In this document: one piece after another, positions 16,744 to 24,839 of the stretch
Numbering within the stretch: the first letter of the stretch is position 1
How the letters are laid out: the number at the start of each line of letters is the position of its first letter
Source of the DNA: Eubacterium sp.
GTDB lineage: Bacteria > Bacillota > Clostridia > Oscillospirales > Acutalibacteraceae
Direction of reading: 5' to 3'
Assembly: GCA_017886765.1 (NCBI GenBank)
Contig: JAGHJI010000059.1
Span: 1 to 59,383, forward strand
Length of the DNA stretch: 59,383 nt
Translations under genes and position numbers: made by a program
The notes under the pieces: model-generated
Databases searched by the model: none
What the model was told of the DNA's origin: nothing
The model's input: only the letters and a program-made list of their open reading frames with translations

Positions 16744-17519
16744 CTAAGCATCTCCCACATCAGAATTGAAGCGGCTGCCGAAGCATTCAGGCTTTCCGCC
16801 CTGCCGGTCATTTTAATAGTAACCAAACTGCCGCAGATTCTCTTTATCTCCTCTCTCACACCGTTTGCCTCATTACCGATAACACATACGCCGCCGGCGG
16901 AAAAATCAATATCCGTAACCGGCGCAGCATTGCTGTCAGGCGTGGAGGCATACACGGGGACGCCCTTCGACTTCAGTCCGGTAAGCATTTGAGCAAGATC
17001 GTCAGTCTGCACAATATGCATTCTCAGCATGGAGCCCATCGCCGCTCGGAGCACCTTGGGATTATACATGTCACAGCCTCCGCCGACGATAACACCGTCT
17101 ATCCCCAGCGCTTCCGCAGTACGAACGATTGTACCGAGATTCCCCGGGTCCTGAATATGATCAAGAGCGATATACCGGCCGTTTGGGATAAAGCGAAAAT
17201 CTGCGTTATTTCTCATACGGCATATGGCAAATACGCCCTGGGGATTTTTTGTGTCACTGAGTTTTTCGGATATATCATCGGAAATGATAAACACCCGCTG
17301 GCAATGCTCGGCTATTTCATCAGCCTGCGTTTTATATTTTTCATAAGCGTTTTGCGTTATCAGTAAACAGCTGACCGTATAAAAAGAATTAAGAACGTCG
17401 AAAACAAGCCTTGCACCCTCCAGCACAAACAGACCCTGCTCCCTGCGGTGTTTGGTTGATGAGAGAAGCTTTTTCACGTTCTTAATTATATCATTATTTT
17501 TACCTGTGATTTTTTCCAT
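16740..17519 (-). CDS. TrmH/SpoU-family RNA 2'-O-methyltransferase
   Basis: Methylates ribose 2'-OH in rRNA or tRNA with S-adenosylmethionine. An N-terminal substrate-binding domain is followed by the SpoU fold with its deep-knot motifs: ALDHIQDPGNLGTIVRTAEA, the middle VCVIGNEANGVREE and the C-terminal MTGRAESLNASAAASI. The start at 17519 (MEKITGKNND) follows CTGGAG at about 6 bases; an earlier in-frame ATG at 17570 lacks a ribosome-binding site. The exact target nucleotide cannot be read from sequence. It is the first gene of the long directon. Confidence 0.92.
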   Translation of the reverse strand: MEKITGKNNDIIKNVKKLLSSTKHRREQGLFVLEGARLVFDVLNSFYTVSCLLITQNAYEKYKTQADEIAEHCQRVFIISDDISEKLSDTKNPQGVFAICRMRNNADFRFIPNGRYIALDHIQDPGNLGTIVRTAEALGIDGVIVGGGCDMYNPKVLRAAMGSMLRMHIVQTDDLAQMLTGLKSKGVPVYASTPDSNAAPVTDIDFSAGGVCVIGNEANGVREEIKRICGSLVTIKMTGRAESLNASAAASILMWEMLR

Positions 17520-17611
17520 ACACAACTCCAGAAAGCGTGCCAATAATTTACATTCGTTTAAAGAAATCACTGACTAATATCAAACTATATATTAAATTAT
17601 AAATATATTAC

Positions 17612-17640
17612 ATTATAAGGTTAAAAATTTCAATAGTAAA
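17612..17640 (-). promoter_or_regulatory. Sigma-A promoter for the 15-gene directon
   Basis: On the minus strand TTTACT, a 17-base spacer and TATAAT lie about 95 bases before the first methyltransferase codon. No other candidate of this quality was seen between the SCP2-like gene and the directon. Assignment is by consensus only. Confidence 0.5.
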
Positions 17641-17658
17641 TTTAAAATAATTCTTTAA

Positions 17659-17692
17659 CAAAAAAGAACTCCCTTATTAAAAGAGAGTTCTT
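17659..17692 (-). terminator. Intrinsic terminator of the transketolase/SCP2 operon
   Basis: Stem AAGAACTC/GAGTTCTT with a U-run (TTTTTTG) on the minus strand, 30 bases after the stop of the last SCP2-like gene. It separates this operon from the housekeeping directon. Confidence 0.8.
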
Positions 17693-17723
17693 ATGAAAAA
17701 ACTTAAATTATATTTTATGACAC

Positions 17724-18521
17724 TTACTTAGCCAGTCCGCCTACAAGCATCATATAGTCGCCGATCTGTACACCGAATTCCGGAGCGCCTTCCATAATAA
17801 GCTGCTGGTCGGCAGTCATCTGGAACATATCTCCGGTGCCCATAAGAATCTTAAGGGCAGATGTGGCGCAGTCAAACTTCATGCAGAAGAACGGCTTTGA
17901 GCGCTTATATTCGCCCCTGCCGGCTCTTGACTTACCTGCCTTGACCCGCATATAAGCCGTACATTCCGGATGCCCCTCAACAGCCCACTGATAACAGCGG
18001 TCCGGGCTTTTAAGCGCCCATTCGTGCACAGCCGGGTGTCCCATTTTATTCAGCTGGGAAATACCGGACGAGAGAAGATAGAAATAGAGCTTACACAAAA
18101 GAAGCGACAACTCCTCATCATCCTCAGGCGGCTCAGAGATATTCAACAGAGAGGACATTTTAAGCAGCACCATCATAAACTTGATGAATTTACCGAAAGA
18201 TCTGATCTTCATCTTCGGCAGCTTGCTCATATCGCCTTTCATAAAAGCGTTCATCTTTTCCATAGAGGAAAATTCAAGCTCGGCGTCGATCTTATCCTGT
18301 CCCAGATATTCTCCCAGTTTAACAGTCCATTCCCCGTTTTCAATGATGAAATGAACGGCTTCTTTATCCTCGGCGTTCACCTTAGCGGACACCTGATAAA
18401 TGGCGTTAACGCCCTCAAACTTCTTTTTCAGCTCCGGCACATCGGCAGCAATCGTTTTCATCAGCGGTAAGACTGCCGCCATAAACACCTTATTCGTGTA
18501 GCGTGTTTCATCACTTGCCAT
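17724..18521 (-). CDS. Two-lobed SCP2-like protein (paralog A)
   Basis: A 265-residue soluble protein with no signal peptide. Residues ~35-125 look like an SCP2 (sterol carrier) lobe: hydrophobic strands AVHFIIENGEWTVKLG, then AELEFSSMEKMNAF at 80-93 followed by a hydrophobic helix 110-125. A second, weaker SCP2-like lobe seems to occupy ~185-262 (FFCMKFDCATSALKI...LIMEG). The same two-lobe plan, with the block FSSxEKxNA in register, is found in the gene at 21806-22570, so the two are divergent paralogs bracketing the operon. SCP2 folds bind lipids or other hydrophobic ligands; delivery or storage of the operon's substrate is inference. It follows the transketolase C-subunit by 47 bases with its own AAAGGAG. 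Confidence 0.7.
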   Translation of the reverse strand: MASDETRYTNKVFMAAVLPLMKTIAADVPELKKKFEGVNAIYQVSAKVNAEDKEAVHFIIENGEWTVKLGEYLGQDKIDAELEFSSMEKMNAFMKGDMSKLPKMKIRSFGKFIKFMMVLLKMSSLLNISEPPEDDEELSLLLCKLYFYLLSSGISQLNKMGHPAVHEWALKSPDRCYQWAVEGHPECTAYMRVKAGKSRAGRGEYKRSKPFFCMKFDCATSALKILMGTGDMFQMTADQQLIMEGAPEFGVQIGDYMMLVGGLAK

Positions 18522-18568
18522 AGTAATACACTCCTTTCATAATCGCATAATGACGGGAATCCAGAAAT

Positions 18569-19579
18569 TTAGAATTCGTCATCCCATGCGTCATCTGCTT
18601 CAAAATCAGCGTGCATCATTTCGGCAATTGCCTCGTTGATACCGTTGGCGTCGATCTTAGCCATAGCAAGGAGATCCTCCTGCAGACCGATTGTTGAAAA
18701 CGCGTTCTGGTGACCCAGCATTTTGAAAGCGCAAGCCTTGCCTGATTTGGCAACGACCTCCGCAACAGCTGAGCCAAGGCCGCCCATAACTTCGTGGTCC
18801 TCGGCGGTAATAATTCTGCGTGTATCCATAACGGCGGAAAGAATAGCTTCCTCGTCGATTGGCTTAATGGTATGCATATTCAGTACACGAACCTTCAGTC
18901 CGGCGTCGGCCTCTGCCATACGAGCGGCCTGCATAGCCTCAAACACACAGGAACCGCAGGCAATAACGGTAATATCCGTACCTTCATTCATAAGGGTTGC
19001 TTTTTTATAATCAAACTTACACTCGTCGATATTCTTATAGATTACCTGGTCAAAGCCGCGGTTGATTCTGATGTAAACCGGACCGGGAATATCGTAAGCC
19101 GCCTTGACGGCATGATAGGTCTCCGTACCGTCGCAGGGACAGATAACCGTCATATTCGGAAGCGCTCTCATACACGCCATATCAATAAGCGAATGGTGGG
19201 TAGAGCCAGCCTGACCGAAAGAGGTACCGGCATGGGTAGCGATAATTTTTACAGGTACGTTCTGATAGCAGATATCCGTATGTATCTGGTCAAGAGAACG
19301 GGCAGCCGTAAAAATAGCGAAGGTGGAGGCAAAGGGAACAAGTCCGTTCTTCGCCATACCTGCCGCAACGCCAAACAGATTCTGTTCGGCAATACCTACA
19401 TTGAAGAATCTGTCAGGGAAATGCTCACCGAACATACCGATCTTTGTTGATTTGGCAAGGTCGGCTGTAAGAGCAACAACATCCTTGTGCTCCTCACCAA
19501 GCTCACAAAGCGCTATACCGTAGCACTCCGCTGTGGACAGTTTGGTAGTATCTGTCATTGTATATGTCATTCCGCCCAT
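18569..19579 (-). CDS. Transketolase, C-terminal subunit (split enzyme)
   Basis: 336 residues covering the pyrimidine-binding and C-terminal domains of transketolase. The catalytic glutamate for ThDP activation is E65 in FFNVGIAEQN, and THAGTSFGQAGSTHHSLIDMA supplies active-site residues. The C-terminal domain (from ~200) has the TVIACGSCVFEA segment. The start follows AAGGAGG 7 bases upstream, which itself overlaps the end of the N-subunit gene, so the two halves are co-translated at near 1:1. A short acidic tail (DFEADDAWDDEF) ends the chain. Split transketolases occur in several pathways and the acceptor cannot be told from sequence; the neighbours suggest a specialised rather than pentose-phosphate role. 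Confidence 0.9.
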   Translation of the reverse strand: MGGMTYTMTDTTKLSTAECYGIALCELGEEHKDVVALTADLAKSTKIGMFGEHFPDRFFNVGIAEQNLFGVAAGMAKNGLVPFASTFAIFTAARSLDQIHTDICYQNVPVKIIATHAGTSFGQAGSTHHSLIDMACMRALPNMTVICPCDGTETYHAVKAAYDIPGPVYIRINRGFDQVIYKNIDECKFDYKKATLMNEGTDITVIACGSCVFEAMQAARMAEADAGLKVRVLNMHTIKPIDEEAILSAVMDTRRIITAEDHEVMGGLGSAVAEVVAKSGKACAFKMLGHQNAFSTIGLQEDLLAMAKIDANGINEAIAEMMHADFEADDAWDDEF

Positions 19580-19581
19580 GA

Positions 19582-20475
19582 TTACGCCTCCTTTTCCGCA
19601 CGCTCGCAGCGCTCTTTGTAATATTTGTCAAGGCTTTCGTTCGCCTGCTTTTCCATAGCCTCGTCAAGCGAGCCGTAGTGCCACAGGTAATTGTCTTTCA
19701 TAAAGTCAACGCCCTCGCCCTTATATGTATCCATGATGATTGCTGTGGGCTTGTCGCCGCCGTCCTGATGGTTTTTGATGGCAGCCTCTATGGCATCGTT
19801 AAGCTCTTTCATATTGTGTCCGTCGATTCTGATTACGTTGAAGCCGAAAGCCTCAAACTTCTTGTCAACCGGCTCAACCTTCATCTCATCGTCAACACGT
19901 CCGTCAATCATACACTTGTTCATATCCGCAAGCACGACTACATTGGAGAGCTTGAACTGCGCCGCGCTCATTGCCGCTTCCCAGTTGGAGCCTTCGTTCA
20001 GCTCGCCGTCACCGGTCAAGCAATAGCACATATAGTCAATATTCTTGACTCTTCCCGCAAGGGCAAAGCCCACCGCAAGAGAAAGGCCGTGACCCAGCGA
20101 ACCCGTGGAGCAGTCGGCGCCCTTAACCTTATTGCAGTCAAGGTGCATACCGATCTTCGCGCCTGTGAGATTAAATATTTTCAACTCGTCAACAGGCATA
20201 TAGCCGAGATCGCAGAGAATCGGAGCATATCCGACAGCGCAGTGTCCCTTTGAAAGGATGAACCTGTCTCTGTCTTCCATATCCGGATCGGAAGTGTCAA
20301 TCTTCATAAAACGATAGTACAGCGCAACCATAGCGTCCATTGCGCTGAGCGAGCCTCCTAAATGACCCGAACCGCCCCAGATTGCTGTCTGGATAGCCAT
20401 TCTTCTCATTTCATCAGCCTTTTTTTCAAGACGAAGCCACTCGGCTTTGTCAAATGGTTTGTAATCAGCCGGCAT
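19582..20475 (-). CDS. Transketolase, N-terminal ThDP-binding subunit (split enzyme)
   Basis: 297 residues corresponding to the PP (diphosphate-binding) domain of transketolase. Conserved histidines are H38 (GGSGHLGG) and H78 (LSKGHCA); SLGHGLSLAVG is present; the ThDP/Mg motif runs from GDG at 155-157 (GDGELNEGSNWEA) to N186 (LADMNK). It transfers a two-carbon ketol unit only together with the C-subunit encoded 2 bases downstream. It lies 40 bases after the aminotransferase gene. The residues needed for cofactor binding are intact. Confidence 0.92.
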   Translation of the reverse strand: MPADYKPFDKAEWLRLEKKADEMRRMAIQTAIWGGSGHLGGSLSAMDAMVALYYRFMKIDTSDPDMEDRDRFILSKGHCAVGYAPILCDLGYMPVDELKIFNLTGAKIGMHLDCNKVKGADCSTGSLGHGLSLAVGFALAGRVKNIDYMCYCLTGDGELNEGSNWEAAMSAAQFKLSNVVVLADMNKCMIDGRVDDEMKVEPVDKKFEAFGFNVIRIDGHNMKELNDAIEAAIKNHQDGGDKPTAIIMDTYKGEGVDFMKDNYLWHYGSLDEAMEKQANESLDKYYKERCERAEKEA

Positions 20476-20515
20476 TAAATTTTCCCCCTTAATATATATT
20501 CAAAAATAACTTTCA

Positions 20516-21790
20516 TTATTTAAGACCGTTAATCTCCGGATGTCTTGCGGCAACAACGCCGAAAGCGTCCTCTGCAATATCAATTGCCAGTTTAATATCC
20601 TCATCTGTAACAGCGGCGTTAATGAAGTGATTATGATGCGATGCCAGGAAAAGTCCCCTTGATACACACTCCGCAATCCACTCCTGATGAAGCATCAGGC
20701 TGTCATCATTGGCTATTCTCAGATAGAACAGAGCAGGCTCACCTGAAACAACCAGATTAAAGCCATGCTCCTTACCCGCAGCCTTAAAGCCTTCGGTCAG
20801 TTTGGTGCCCTTTTCTCTGAACATGGTCGGAATATCAAGCTTTTTCATCTTCGGAATACAGGCGAGACAGGCGGCAAACGGTTCCGCGCTCATCCAGTAT
20901 GAGCCTGTATATACAACCGACGACGCTGTGTTTTTCATATGTTCCTGACCGCAGACCGCGGACATATTATAGCCGTTGGCAAGCGCCTTGCAGAAGCAGA
21001 TAAGGTCCGCCTTAAATCCGTAATAATGGTCAGAACCGGCAATGTCAAGCCGGAAGCCCGTACGGACATCGTCAATGATGAGCACCATACCGTGATCGTC
21101 GCAGAATTTGCGCACCTTAGCCCACTGCTCTTTCGTGGCACATTCGTTATCCTTAAAATTGCCGTGATCATACGGCTGTGCAATCAGTCCGGCAACATCA
21201 CCGCCGCAGGCGTCATACGCCTCCTGCATTGCGTCCATGTCAAACCACGGAACAACAATGTTGTTGGCAACATCCTCAGGAAGAATTCCCGGATAGTCAA
21301 CCTTCTGCGCCCACTGGAAATCACCGTGATAATATCCCTTAAAGAACATCATCTTTTTCTTGCCTGTGTGTGCGCGGGCGCACATTACGCTGAAAGTCGT
21401 GGCGTCCGAGCCGTTTTTCATAAAGAATGCCCAGTCGGCTGACGCTACAGTGTCCTTAAGCAGTTCGGCGCACTCAACCATCTTATATGACGGAGAGGTG
21501 GTGCAGTTGCCTATTTTCAGCTGCTCCATAGCGGCGGCGTCAACATCGTCGTCGCAGTAGCCCAGAACATTCGGACCATAGGCGCACATAAAATCAAGAT
21601 ATTTATTGCCGTCAACATCCCAGAAATATGTACCCTTTGCTTTCTGGGACATCAAAGGCCATTTTGTAATCGGAAGAAAAAGTCCCTCTGACGGACCGAG
21701 ATGTCCGTACACACCGGACGGGATAGCGTTTAACGCTCTCTGAAACCATTCGGCGCTTTTCTCATGCGTATATTCAGGAAATTTACTCAT
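20516..21790 (-). CDS. Class-III PLP aminotransferase, glutamate-1-semialdehyde aminomutase-like
   Basis: 424-residue fold-type I PLP enzyme of aminotransferase class III. FMKNGSDATTFSVMCARAHTG carries the phosphate-binding GSDA at 127-130; DDVRTGFR at 240-247 contains the PLP-pyridine aspartate; the Schiff-base lysine is K268 in FCKALANGY. The DDVRTGFR and FCKALANG readings differ from HemL (DEVMTGFR, GKVIGGG), and no hem genes are nearby, so haem synthesis is unlikely. Its tight linkage to a split transketolase suggests it aminates a ketone or aldehyde made by that enzyme (inference). It lies 15 bases after the first SCP2-like gene, with AAGGAGG before its ATG. Confidence 0.88.
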   Translation of the reverse strand: MSKFPEYTHEKSAEWFQRALNAIPSGVYGHLGPSEGLFLPITKWPLMSQKAKGTYFWDVDGNKYLDFMCAYGPNVLGYCDDDVDAAAMEQLKIGNCTTSPSYKMVECAELLKDTVASADWAFFMKNGSDATTFSVMCARAHTGKKKMMFFKGYYHGDFQWAQKVDYPGILPEDVANNIVVPWFDMDAMQEAYDACGGDVAGLIAQPYDHGNFKDNECATKEQWAKVRKFCDDHGMVLIIDDVRTGFRLDIAGSDHYYGFKADLICFCKALANGYNMSAVCGQEHMKNTASSVVYTGSYWMSAEPFAACLACIPKMKKLDIPTMFREKGTKLTEGFKAAGKEHGFNLVVSGEPALFYLRIANDDSLMLHQEWIAECVSRGLFLASHHNHFINAAVTDEDIKLAIDIAEDAFGVVAARHPEINGLK

Positions 21791-21805
21791 ACTATCGAAT
21801 CCTCC

Positions 21806-22570
21806 TTATCCTAAATAAACAGCGACTCTGTCAAGAATACGGTTAATATTATCCACCATGGAAATCATGCCTGCCATATAGATATTTCCGGCGCAAAGTT
21901 CAGCCATAGTGGAAGCAGTACCGGTAAAAAGTCCATAAGCAAGGTCAATGGAATTGAACTCCATAATCGCTCTGGGCGTATCAGGCTTTTCCTTTATCGT
22001 CTCAAAATGATGGTTGCGCACACGCAGGGTTGCGTAGCAGACATCGGTTATGCCCATCTGCACATCGCCGTCAACCGTATAGAGTGCCGACTGTTTTGAA
22101 ATGGAATCGGAATTTGCCAGCGCTGAAAGAGCTCCCGCAATCGTATAAAACGTAAGAACTGTAGACTCCTCAAAGAAATCTCTGTTTTTCAGGTCCGCCT
22201 CGCTGGGCCTCAGCAGCTTTGTGAGTCTGTCTGTCAGTTTGGTAAACGGTCCCAGCAGGAAGGACAGCACCTGTCCCATATTCTTTACCGGAATGCCGGG
22301 CTTACTGTCATCAATAAGCGCATTGAATTTTTCAGGAGATGAAAAATTCATCTTACAAGTGCAGCCGTAACTGCCCTCGCTCATCATGCAGCCGTCCTTT
22401 GAAAAATGAAAGGTACAGCACGGGCCGCCGTTAACGTCAAAGCACAGTGAAACAGGCTTTTTCAGCGCAGCACATACAGCTTTTGCCTCGTCATCCAACT
22501 CACAGAGATTTTCAAGAGTTGCAAGCACACCGTACATATTTACATACGCCATTGCTTTTGCTTCTTTCAA
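21806..22570 (-). CDS. Two-lobed SCP2-like protein, cysteine-rich (paralog B)
   Basis: 254 residues, first gene of the operon. An SCP2-like lobe at ~35-120 contains CKMNFSSPEKFNAL (71-85) and the hydrophobic helix around 100-120; a second lobe at ~160-250 contains RAIMEFNSIDLAYGLFTGTAS and IYMAGM. It matches paralog A in layout but little else. Distinctive cysteines cluster at 43, 51, 52, 61, 70 and 72, which could bind metal or form disulfides; this is unexplained. The start is TTG at 22570, 7 bases after AAGGAGG; the first in-frame ATG (22552) would be about 25 bases away. Likely role: hydrophobic-ligand carrier for the operon (inference). Confidence 0.68.
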   Translation of the reverse strand: MKEAKAMAYVNMYGVLATLENLCELDDEAKAVCAALKKPVSLCFDVNGGPCCTFHFSKDGCMMSEGSYGCTCKMNFSSPEKFNALIDDSKPGIPVKNMGQVLSFLLGPFTKLTDRLTKLLRPSEADLKNRDFFEESTVLTFYTIAGALSALANSDSISKQSALYTVDGDVQMGITDVCYATLRVRNHHFETIKEKPDTPRAIMEFNSIDLAYGLFTGTASTMAELCAGNIYMAGMISMVDNINRILDRVAVYLG

Positions 22571-22641
22571 AATAATTCCTCCTTATACAATTATTATCCA
22601 GCGTTAAAACATAACACAAACATAATAATAAATTTAATGAC

Positions 22642-22670
22642 ATTATACCACAATTTTCCGTGCGCAAGCA
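22642..22670 (-). promoter_or_regulatory. Promoter of the transketolase/aminotransferase/SCP2 operon
   Basis: Minus strand: extended -10 TGGTATAAT (TATAAT at 22642-22647) about 70 bases before the TTG start, with a weak -35 (TGCTTG) at 17-base spacing. The -35 falls inside a GC-rich hairpin (22658-22673) of the adjoining repeat island. Confidence 0.5.
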
Positions 22671-22861
22671 CGGACGGTGACGGAGGTCACCGCAGAGCGC
22701 AGCTCAAATGGATGATACAATGTTCTCCGAAATAATCTAAATCTATGATTTAGCCATTATTTCGTGAGGTTATTTAGCCAAGCAAGGTAAAACCTTGCGA
22801 ACGCCAATGTTCTCCGAAATAATCTGAATCTATGATTTAGCCATTATTTCGTGAGGTTATT
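22658..22861. repeat. Palindromic repeat island with a 57-bp direct repeat
   Basis: This non-coding stretch is a chain of stem-loops. CCGTGC-GCAA-GCACGG is at 22658-22673 and CGGTGAC/GTCACCG at 22675-22692. A 57-base element at 22718-22774 is repeated at 22805-22861 with one mismatch. Each copy is nearly palindromic (CGAAATAAT..ATTATTTCG and CTAAATC/GATTTAG), and the single difference (A to G) is kept paired as G-U. Between the copies lies the hairpin GCAAGGT-AAA-ACCTTGC. No ORF fits. It resembles a REP/MITE-like composite element. Confidence 0.75.
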
Positions 22862-22921
22862 ATACCATATAAACTTGCCAATAGCAATAAAACGGAAACA
22901 AATTATATTTACAATTTGGTA

Positions 22922-22952
22922 AAAAGGACAAAGGCAAACGCCTCTGTCCTTT
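22922..22952 (-). terminator. Intrinsic terminator of the PAP2 gene
   Basis: Stem AAAGGACA..TGTCCTTT with an inner GGC/GCC and U-run (CCTTTTTACC) on the minus strand, 28 bases after the PAP2 stop. Confidence 0.8.
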
Positions 22953-22979
22953 ATATAAAAATATTTATATTACTCACTT

Positions 22980-23876
22980 TCATCCTGAACTGTTTCCCTG
23001 AAGCTGGTTCCAGTGGATTTTACAGTAGCGCTCTCCGTTGATTGCCGGATAGTCGTCCTCCAGTCTGGCGGCGTTGTAGCAGTCATATTCACCGTTATAG
23101 GCGCAGCGTACCGTATCCTCACCGCCCTCAGAAAGAGACGGAATGAAAGCGTAAAGGAATATACCCAAAACCGCAAGGCATATAACGGCAGGAGCCGCCT
23201 TGCCCTTTGTCTTTTCGGTGATTTTTCTGAAAAGCTTAGCCGCGTCAAGGTTACCGAGCCGGGTTTTATCAAACAGAATCATGACCAGCTTCATCAGGAA
23301 ATAACCGATGATTGCGGCAGCAACGCCTACAACAATACCCCCGATAACATCCGTGGGATAATGCACCATAAGATAAATACGGCTTCCCGCCGTACACAAT
23401 GCAATAACAGGGAAAATCCACGCAATCTTTTTCTTGTCCTTCCTGAAGCAAATGAAAAGCGCCATAGCCGTTTCCACAGCGGCGGTAGTGTGACCGGACG
23501 GGAAGGAATAATCCCCCTCCGACAGCGCACCGGCGCCGATATACCACTGCCAGTAATCGGCCACACCCTGAAGCGTGTTGTACGGACGTATACGAAGCAC
23601 TGTCGGTTTGACAATCACATTCGTAATGATCGTACCTACGGCAATGGCAAAAAGAAGCGTAAAGCCGTATTTTCTGGTCCTCTTAAAAAAACACAGAACG
23701 ACGGCAAGAATAACGATCGGGATCGTAAAAGCCTCGTCACCGAAAGTTGTAAAAAACTTAGCCACATATGTAAGAAAAGTATTCTGGAGCGAGCCGAAAA
23801 ACTCAAAGACCCACATATCAAAGCTGTAAAAGACCTTATCCATGCTGTCACCCAATGTTAAAAGTATCGGATTCAT
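22980..23876 (-). CDS. PAP2-superfamily membrane phosphatase with C-terminal extension
   Basis: Integral membrane lipid-phosphate phosphatase type. The three PAP2 motifs are visible: KPTVLRIRP, PSGHTTAA and SRIYLMVHYPTDV. Five to six hydrophobic segments span roughly residues 30-200, and a further one lies near 230-250. A hydrophilic tail of about 40 residues with three cysteines follows and is not typical. The second ATG (23876) sits 7 bases from GGAGG; the first ATG (23882) is too close. Substrates of the family include undecaprenyl diphosphate, phosphatidate and sphingoid phosphates; which one applies here is not readable. It has its own terminator and is not co-transcribed with the operon downstream. 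Confidence 0.88.
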   Translation of the reverse strand: MNPILLTLGDSMDKVFYSFDMWVFEFFGSLQNTFLTYVAKFFTTFGDEAFTIPIVILAVVLCFFKRTRKYGFTLLFAIAVGTIITNVIVKPTVLRIRPYNTLQGVADYWQWYIGAGALSEGDYSFPSGHTTAAVETAMALFICFRKDKKKIAWIFPVIALCTAGSRIYLMVHYPTDVIGGIVVGVAAAIIGYFLMKLVMILFDKTRLGNLDAAKLFRKITEKTKGKAAPAVICLAVLGIFLYAFIPSLSEGGEDTVRCAYNGEYDCYNAARLEDDYPAINGERYCKIHWNQLQGNSSG

Positions 23877-23904
23877 AGGCATACCTCCGTAAATGTTTTT
23901 CTAT

Positions 23905-23936
23905 ATTATAGTATCAAAAACGAAAAAGTTTTTCAA
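23905..23936 (-). promoter_or_regulatory. Possible PAP2 promoter
   Basis: A clear TATAAT on the minus strand at 23905-23910, about 30 bases before the start codon. The best -35 match (TTGAAA) is at a long 20-base spacing, so only the -10 is convincing. Confidence 0.35.
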
Positions 23937-23976
23937 TAATAAATATTAAAGTGTTATACTTTATTTGTTAATAATA

Positions 23977-24005
23977 TTGTAAAATATTTATGTTAGATTT
24001 ATAGC
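23977..24005 (+). promoter_or_regulatory. Possible promoter of the J-domain gene
   Basis: TTGTAA, 17 bases, TATAGC about 28 bases before the ATG at 24033, in an AT-rich divergent intergenic space. Weak consensus match. Confidence 0.3.
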
Positions 24006-24032
24006 ACTTTGAAATAACAATAAGGAAAAAAT

Positions 24033-24839
24033 ATGATAACGAATCCATATAAAGTTTTAGGCGTACCGGACGGCGCCAGCGAGGAAGAGTGCACCAAGGC
24101 GTACAAAAAGCTTGCGAAAAAATACCATCCGGACCTGAATCCAAACGACCGCAACGCCGCTAAAAAAATGGCGGAAATCAACGCGGCGTATGACCAGATA
24201 AAAAACGGTACGGCTGCCCAGCAGAGCGGATATACCTACAGCGGTTACGGCAGGCAGTCACGCCAAAGCAGCAGCACCTCCGCTCCCGATTACCTCAGCT
24301 CCGTTACACAGTTTATCAAAAGCGGACAATACCAGCAGGCAATTAATCTTTTAAATACAATTGAGGACAGAGACGCGCGCTGGTATTATCTTTCCGCTCT
24401 GGCAAATATGTCACTGGGAAACCGCGCCGTTGCCGAGGACCATATAAGAACGGCTTATGCTAAGGACCCGGGGAATTACGAATACCAGCAGGCATATGAA
24501 AACATTACCCAGGGAATTAATCCCCTGGACTATAATCCGTTTTCCTCCTTCTTCGATTTCGGTGACTTTACACAATATAATCAGAATACGGATAACAGAA
24601 GAACGCATACCACTGTCCGACGCGGTAACCGGAGCTGCCTGGGCAGAATACTCAGAATCATATTCATCATAATTATTATCAGGCTGATATTCAGACTGAT
24701 TTTTTCCTTCACGGACGGCAGACAACGCCGCTATTATTATCAGCAGAGCCCGTCGTACGGCTATTCCCAGCAATATGACTACGCCCAGGACAGCGGCGAT
24801 ATATTGGGTGAAAGCAGCGGAGAAAGGCAGGATTTATAA
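24033..24839 (+). CDS. DnaJ-domain membrane protein
   Basis: 268 residues. An N-terminal J domain (residues 3-60) has the HPD tripeptide in [10 protein letters not shown], so it should stimulate an Hsp70 (DnaK) ATPase. Residues ~90-165 look like TPR-type helices ([20 protein letters not shown]). A single strongly hydrophobic stretch rich in isoleucine ([19 protein letters not shown]) near 208-228 is followed by a Tyr/Gln/Ser-rich tail. There is no zinc-finger or C-terminal substrate domain, so this is a type-III J protein that probably recruits DnaK to the membrane (inference). A zinc-ribbon membrane gene follows 2 bases later. Confidence 0.88.

Follow-up and report, generated by a model that had tools for sequence, protein, structure and literature searches.

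The window analysed here is the whole stretch of 59,383 nucleotides of contig JAGHJI010000059.1 (Eubacterium sp., assembly GCA_017886765.1), from a genome of 1.9 Mb in 91 contigs. At 17724-22570 it carries an operon of five genes, scpA, AT, TKN, TKC and scpB, all on the minus strand and separated by gaps of 15, 40, 2 and 47 bases. These encode a class-III aminotransferase (AT), the two halves of a split transketolase (TK) and two proteins with SCP2-like predicted folds, and the gene context and active-site changes suggest an unfamiliar route by which gut bacteria make or break fatty amino alcohols resembling sphingosine. A sequence-only reading of this DNA had described five same-strand genes with these gaps, one promoter, one terminator and two SCP2-like proteins. 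The coordinates agree, the strand (which it did not give) being minus; a promoter-like site upstream and a hairpin after scpB were observed as consensus matches only; and both SCP2-like proteins were recovered as predicted folds, with no family match over cut-off. The features of the locus are as follows.

22570-21806, minus strand: scpA, TTG start, 254 amino acids; predicted tandem SCP2-like carrier, directly upstream of AT
21790-20516, minus strand: AT, 424 amino acids; class-III pyridoxal phosphate (PLP) aminotransferase, PF00202, nearest solved relative FumI
20475-19582, minus strand: TKN, 297 amino acids; N-terminal half of the split transketolase, PF00456
19579-18569, minus strand: TKC, 336 amino acids; C-terminal half of the split transketolase, PF02779 and PF02780; Ala replaces the residues equivalent to human R318 and D424
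18521-17724, minus strand: scpB, 265 amino acids; predicted tandem SCP2-like carrier, directly downstream of TKC
22887-22859, minus strand: promoter-like site TTGCTA-17-TATAAT with an extended -10, sigma-70-like (consensus match only)
22931-22902, minus strand: second promoter-like site upstream of scpA (consensus match only)
17692-17664, minus strand: intrinsic-terminator-like hairpin after scpB, 12 pairs with a U-rich tail (consensus match only)

We compared the locus with the best 80 of 332 relatives, using loci from other genomes. The intact five-gene order on one strand was observed in 54 of the 80 loci, scpA-AT alone in 16 and an apparently disrupted arrangement in two (L035 and L060), and a contig end cuts the remaining eight. 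In L060, the TKC match ends early and no scpB was seen before the contig end. The AT of the window shares 98% identity with its counterpart in a Candidatus Eubacterium faecigallinarum metagenome-assembled genome and 92% with that of Eubacterium coprostanoligenes ATCC 51222, in whose genome the operon is also present (L026). Wherever the contig reaches, scpA precedes AT in the examined loci, the exception being G572, whose AT (46% identical) has no scpA. Downstream, scpB was found after TKC in every linked locus having a complete TKC and a contig that runs on, and it still follows the operon-type TK when this is unlinked to AT (G630, G632, G636 and G290). As scpA travels with AT and scpB with TK, the operon consists of two enzyme-carrier modules. 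The topA, dprA and rRNA-methyltransferase genes were in the fetched flank of 10 of the 80 loci, and the upstream PAP2-like and DnaJ-like genes in that of two, a relative of the PAP2-like gene occurring in L003 and L014. Since the flanking genes differ in most of the loci, we concluded that the five genes are the unit.

Next, we examined the split transketolase. TKN scored over the cut-off of PF00456 and TKC over those of PF02779 and PF02780, so that the domains of a transketolase are all present. The best solved matches were 6yak (N half of a split TK; 212 bits) for TKN and 6yaj (Carboxydothermus split transketolase) for TKC. The equivalog model NF004559 gave 276 bits with TKC and 238 with TKN for a cut-off of 488, to which we attach little weight because the halves were scored singly. 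For the residue comparison, 80 operon-type rows (at least 50% identity) and the window yielded 67 distinct sequences, and 20 paralogue rows yielded 19. Matches shorter than 290 residues were left out, as were rows duplicating the locus of the window itself; the human and Carboxydothermus sequences were taken into the alignment, and four operon-type rows came from genomes with TK unlinked to AT. In human numbering, we take E366 to be the catalytic Glu, H416 the substrate His, D424 (equated with E. coli D469 and yeast D477) the residue facing the substrate hydroxyl and R318 a phosphate ligand; S345, H416 and R474 are likewise assumed to be phosphate contacts.

We observed that the catalytic residues are retained in the operon-type TKs, E366, F392 and H416 in 67 of 67 sequences and F389 in 65, and that S345 is Ser in 65 and R474 is kept in all. 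The D424 position is Ala in every one of the 67; among the 19 paralogues it is Asp (15), Asn (2), Gly (1) or Leu (1). At the R318 position the operon-type TKs have Ala (54), Ser (10), Thr (1) or Arg (2, those of G632 and G636), and the paralogues have Arg in 17 of 19 and a gap in the other two. The operon-type TK thus does not carry the D424 and R318 pair of a canonical sugar-phosphate transketolase. It appears to have lost two residues tied to hydroxylated and phosphorylated substrates, which suggests a lipid as the substrate class. In the passages of PMC5573996 available to us, the E. coli D469E/T and yeast D477E/T variants gain activity on aliphatic aldehydes, and yeast R528 is a phosphate-binding residue. 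A second split transketolase, having both R318 and D424, is encoded elsewhere in the window's genome (G000 C19), and hence the pentose phosphate pathway can probably run without the operon TK. The enzyme of Carboxydothermus hydrogenoformans (6yaj/6yak) is also made of two chains with the catalytic residues kept; the operon TK differs from it in that the R318 and D424 equivalents are replaced and scpB follows.

AT passes the Pfam cut-off of PF00202 (Aminotran_3), and no NCBIfam model was over its cut-off among the 25 matches listed. Its score against the HemL model TIGR00713 (glutamate-1-semialdehyde 2,1-aminomutase) was 181.5 bits for a cut-off of 527.3, which places it outside that family. 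The nearest solved sequence was FumI (PDB 6hbs; 277 bits, E 2.3e-81), followed by the aminomutase GSAM, 3bs8, with 158 bits; as judged by sequence similarity, AT is closer to FumI than to the other solved class-III enzymes and is a candidate FumI-type enzyme. FumI of Sphingopyxis sp. MTA144, of the class-III PLP family like AT, acts on a long-chain 2-amino-3-hydroxy substrate: hydrolysed fumonisin B1, an amino polyol with a long chain, gives up its C2 amine to pyruvate (PMC2933618, in the passages available to us). FumI belongs to a fumonisin catabolic pathway, whereas AT, known here from sequence, sits with carriers and a transketolase.

For scpA and scpB, no Pfam or NCBIfam model was over cut-off. 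The AF2 model of scpA has a pLDDT of 93.9 and a pTM of 0.90, and this predicted structure was matched to SCP2 domains by Foldseek and by VIA-align 2, with rows on both halves. In structure prediction, both proteins have SCP2-like folds. Their nearest fold rows include alkylsulfatases and MycE/SpnK, and we took the part shared with these rows to be the predicted SCP2-like domain. The fold of the models is common to the SCP2/SCP-2L carriers (1ikt, 1pz4) and to the SCP2-like domain of the alkylsulfatase SdsA1 (2cfu), but scpA and scpB differ from SCP2 carriers in their tandem arrangement and in having no sequence-family match. They are predicted to be tandem lipid-carrier-like proteins.

A probable link to sphingoid bases is found in divergent relatives. 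In five genomes, from three other genera and two families, scpA-AT adjoin an alpha-oxoamine synthase homologous to serine palmitoyltransferase (SPT) and a short-chain reductase (SDR) in place of the transketolase. Two gene orders were observed, SPT-SDR-scpA-AT (G506, G532 and G658) and scpA-AT-SPT-SDR (G348 and G362). The SPT homologue (L101 7718-8908) is closest to SPT, its best solved match being 3a2b with 402 bits; the non-SPT entries reached 278 (BioF/KBL-like), 255 (KBL), 246 (cysteate acyltransferase) and 111 bits (CAI-1 synthase). The SDR gene has general SDR matches only, and its product may be a ketosphinganine reductase. SPT and SDR are paired in 16 of the 17 loci examined and also in L203, the exception being L191 (G555), and five further AT genomes have SPT elsewhere (G275, G280, G542, G555 and G602). 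Homologues of SPT and SDR, the two enzyme types of the route through SPT and ketosphinganine reductase, are in these relatives linked to the same scpA-AT as in the window; the genome of the window, in which no SPT of this kind was found at E<=1e-60, has the TK pair in its place. In an AT tree of 51 sequences in all, with the TK-linked rows thinned and one HemL sequence as root, deep branches hold most of the SPT-associated ATs, and the TK-linked ATs are nested, as is the AT of G555 (SPT unlinked); several nodes have low support. The loci with the SPT homologue, mostly SDR-paired, are L101 6910-8908, L100, L102, L106, L183-L194 and L203. In one other arrangement (L185 4154-10692, G336), SPT-SDR lie between two AMP-binding acyl-CoA-ligase-like genes with an acyltransferase-like gene upstream, all named by eye.

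We then counted the genes in an order sample of 394 genomes (cut-offs of E<=1e-100 for AT, 1e-8 for scpB and 1e-130 for SPT). AT served as the wide probe, scpA being too sparse (found in one of 245 genomes of the class, that of the window). AT was present in 24 genomes, scpB in 14 and SPT in 49, and the last count suggests, from homology, that sphingoid bases are synthesized in gut Bacillota. All 14 scpB genomes have AT and none has SPT at E<=1e-130; nine of the other AT genomes have SPT and one (G572, AT of 46% identity) has neither SPT nor scpB. SPT without AT was found in 40 genomes, and AT is rare within the two SPT-linked families (4 of 63 and 2 of 21 genomes). A second sample comprised 15 genomes, identified through loci in which no TK is linked to AT. 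One of them, G630, has TK-scpB elsewhere, G632 and G636 have SPT together with a TK having a distant scpB (33-34%), G644 (by match the same genome as G555) has SPT, and 11 are without SPT and without TK-scpB. In these samples every genome with TK-scpB also has AT but the converse does not hold, a pattern that would be expected if AT were the first enzyme to act. A radical-SAM-like gene (by eye) adjoins AT at L080 9980-10804 and L081 4452-5312, both in genomes that have scpA-AT without TK-scpB or SPT.

The mutual exclusion of SPT and TK was considered as a proof of their equivalence and rejected, since SPT is also lacking in 19 of the 20 further genomes listed for the family of the window, and G632 and G636 hold both. 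Fisher values were likewise given no weight, as they take no account of relatedness. A LuxC-type fatty-aldehyde maker was over cut-off in none of 49 genomes, in a search that did not extend to other aldehyde makers or to sphingolipid hydrolases; weak matches below cut-off were seen in G404 and G508, neither of which has the operon. This absence removes one aldehyde source, not others.

A long-chain lipid substrate is thus supported by several independent lines, namely the FumI likeness of AT, the SPT-SDR linkage, the TK residues and the SCP2-like folds, and from these we infer the substrates, the direction, the carrier ligands and the ketol partner of the following route. The operon would act, with no phosphorylation step, on long-chain bases of sphingoid type (2-amino-1,3-diols). 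AT, supplied by scpA, would swap the C2 amino group for a ketone, interconverting the 2-amino-1,3-diol and a 1,3-dihydroxy-2-ketone. TKN/TKC, fed by scpB, would make or break the C2-C3 bond, interconverting this ketone and a fatty aldehyde plus a two-carbon ketol, the latter moved to or from a sugar phosphate. SPT-SDR would join the pool at the amine and TK at the ketone. In the likeliest direction, gut-derived sphingoid bases would be deaminated and then cleaved, yielding a pentose phosphate together with a fatty aldehyde, for detoxification and carbon salvage. The cleavage would be a transketolase analogue of sphingosine-1-phosphate lyase, a PLP lyase that acts on a phosphorylated long-chain base to give a fatty aldehyde and involves no transketolase; the proposed route shares with that pathway the passage from long-chain base to fatty aldehyde and differs in the type of lyase and in the phosphorylated base. 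The same two-step chemistry is known from in vitro transketolase-transaminase cascades giving 2-amino-1,3-diols, with engineered enzymes and short substrates and not as a natural lipid pathway.

We give deamination of a sphingoid base followed by transketolase cleavage a probability of roughly 0.4. This order fits somewhat better because AT-scpA also occur with SPT or with neither supplier; in such genomes only the conversion of amine to ketone makes obvious use of AT, and the same direction works in the TK genomes. At even odds stands the broader proposal, whichever the direction, that a natural lipid transketolase, a FumI-like AT and two dedicated SCP2-like carriers give gut Bacillota a phosphate-free, SPT-independent route for making or breaking sphingoid bases, and that this route replaced, in evolution, the SPT-reductase pair beside the same AT.

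Several observations weigh against deamination and cleavage of a long-chain base. The aliphatic-active transketolase mutants are Asp to Glu and Asp to Thr, which are still polar, and Ala is absent from the passages of PMC5573996 available to us. The TKs of G632 and G636 retain R318. The phosphate-contact residues S345 (65 of 67), H416 and R474 (67 of 67 each) are retained in the operon-type TKs, and therefore one partner of TK is probably still a sugar phosphate. AT clusters with SPT-SDR, which is biosynthetic by family, and a catabolic gene would be odd there. The genomes with neither supplier are of unstated completeness, and two of them, G637 and G640, have an alpha-oxoamine synthase of 38-39%.

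The sequence-only reading had proposed a sphingoid-type route that builds the amino-diol. The sphingoid-type substrate class agrees with all four lines above, and the biosynthetic direction fits somewhat less well. In biosynthesis, TK would join a ketol unit to a fatty aldehyde and AT would aminate the ketone, giving a sphinganine-type base without SPT, so that one and the same base would be supplied either by SPT-SDR or by TK-AT. This draws on the same evidence for the substrate class (FumI, the SPT links and the TK residues), and SPT at E<=1e-130 is lacking in all 14 scpB genomes of the order sample. It also agrees with the 40 genomes having SPT without AT, where SPT-SDR hence needs no AT for the base, and with the clustering of AT with SPT-SDR in two gene orders. 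TK-AT could replace SPT-SDR in synthesis. However, genomes with SPT would have no need of AT, although AT is linked there, and AT would be without a substrate in the genomes with neither supplier; both contexts are more readily explained by AT removing the amine. Moreover, the lack of SPT may follow family (19 of the 20 other listed family genomes are not among the SPT genomes), G632 and G636 hold SPT alongside a TK whose scpB is distant (33-34%), and no LuxC-type aldehyde source was over cut-off. We regard biosynthesis as rather unlikely.

Another long-chain lipid might be handled instead, for example an alkyl alpha-hydroxyketone signal or a 1-deoxy or other amino lipid made through the alpha-oxoamine synthase family. 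KBL, cysteate acyltransferase and CAI-1 synthase also match the SPT homologue, whose amino-acid substrate is assigned here from homology, and a synthase, SDR and AT in series could end in a hydroxyketone. This appears improbable, because the synthase matches SPT best by a wide margin (402 bits against 278, 255, 246 and 111) and a primary CH2OH, such as a sphingoid head has, is an inherent outcome of the TK reaction. A water-soluble amino sugar or amino polyol pathway, with SCP2-like proteins that are structural or bind something else, would suit the fact that transketolases and class-III aminotransferases are mostly enzymes of sugars and amino acids, as well as the retention of S345, H416 and R474; L021 and L070 also have single sugar-kinase-like genes (named by eye) at a distance of a few kb from scpA-AT. 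Against it stand the loss of D424 and R318, the FumI and SPT links and the other split TK with R318 and D424 in the genome. In addition, the sequence-only reading had named conserved linkage to soluble-sugar or sulfoglycolysis genes as what would speak against a lipid, and by-eye inspection of the loci read found no recurrent gene for soluble sugars, glycans, nucleotide sugars or sulfoglycolysis. We consider a soluble pathway very improbable.

In the open-access literature (most subscription papers and preprints lay outside the scope) we found no transketolase-aminotransferase-sphingoid pathway among the matches listed, in line with the sequence-only reading, which knew of no described pathway with this gene set. 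On SPT in Bacillota, nothing on point was among the open-access matches listed.

Plasmalogens are a source of fatty aldehyde. We took PF09989, as an assumption without proof, to be a marker of PlsA-like plasmalogen synthase. The domain is missing from 10 of the 13 operon genomes, whereas 18 of the 20 other genomes listed for the family have it. Plasmalogen synthase is placed in the 2-hydroxyacyl-CoA dehydratase family in the parts of PMC12838417 available to us, where PF09989 is not named. According to passages of the review PMC8468837, two cholesterol-reducing Eubacterium strains needed plasmenylethanolamine to grow and consumed it, and two later strains reduced cholesterol without it. As the PF09989 pattern follows genus, we treat the plasmalogen idea as a lead only.

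Around the operon, promoter-like sites number 17 in the region compared with 9.4 +/- 3.1 in shuffles, and terminator-like sites 6 compared with 5.2 +/- 2.2; Rfam at gathering scores matched no RNA element in 17000-24100. Upstream of scpA, near the promoter-like sites, lies a 57-nt direct repeat (22718-22774 and 22805-22861; 98% alike, 87 bases apart) that contains CGAAATAAT...ATTATTTCG; it has two copies only within the window and no Rfam match. A PAP2-like phosphatase gene, named by eye, lies further upstream on the same strand (22980-23882).

In the gut, sphingoid bases are host signals, components of the diet and antibacterial lipids. To our knowledge, their known metabolism depends on SPT, on kinases and on a PLP lyase. 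The operon is of interest because it is conserved, has a strange gene set and is directly testable with a handful of purified proteins. If the proposal is true, it would provide a natural enzyme for long-chain amino-diols and what would be, as far as we know, the first transketolase with a dedicated lipid carrier, and the transketolase-aminotransferase route would add a second kind of sphingoid-base chemistry.

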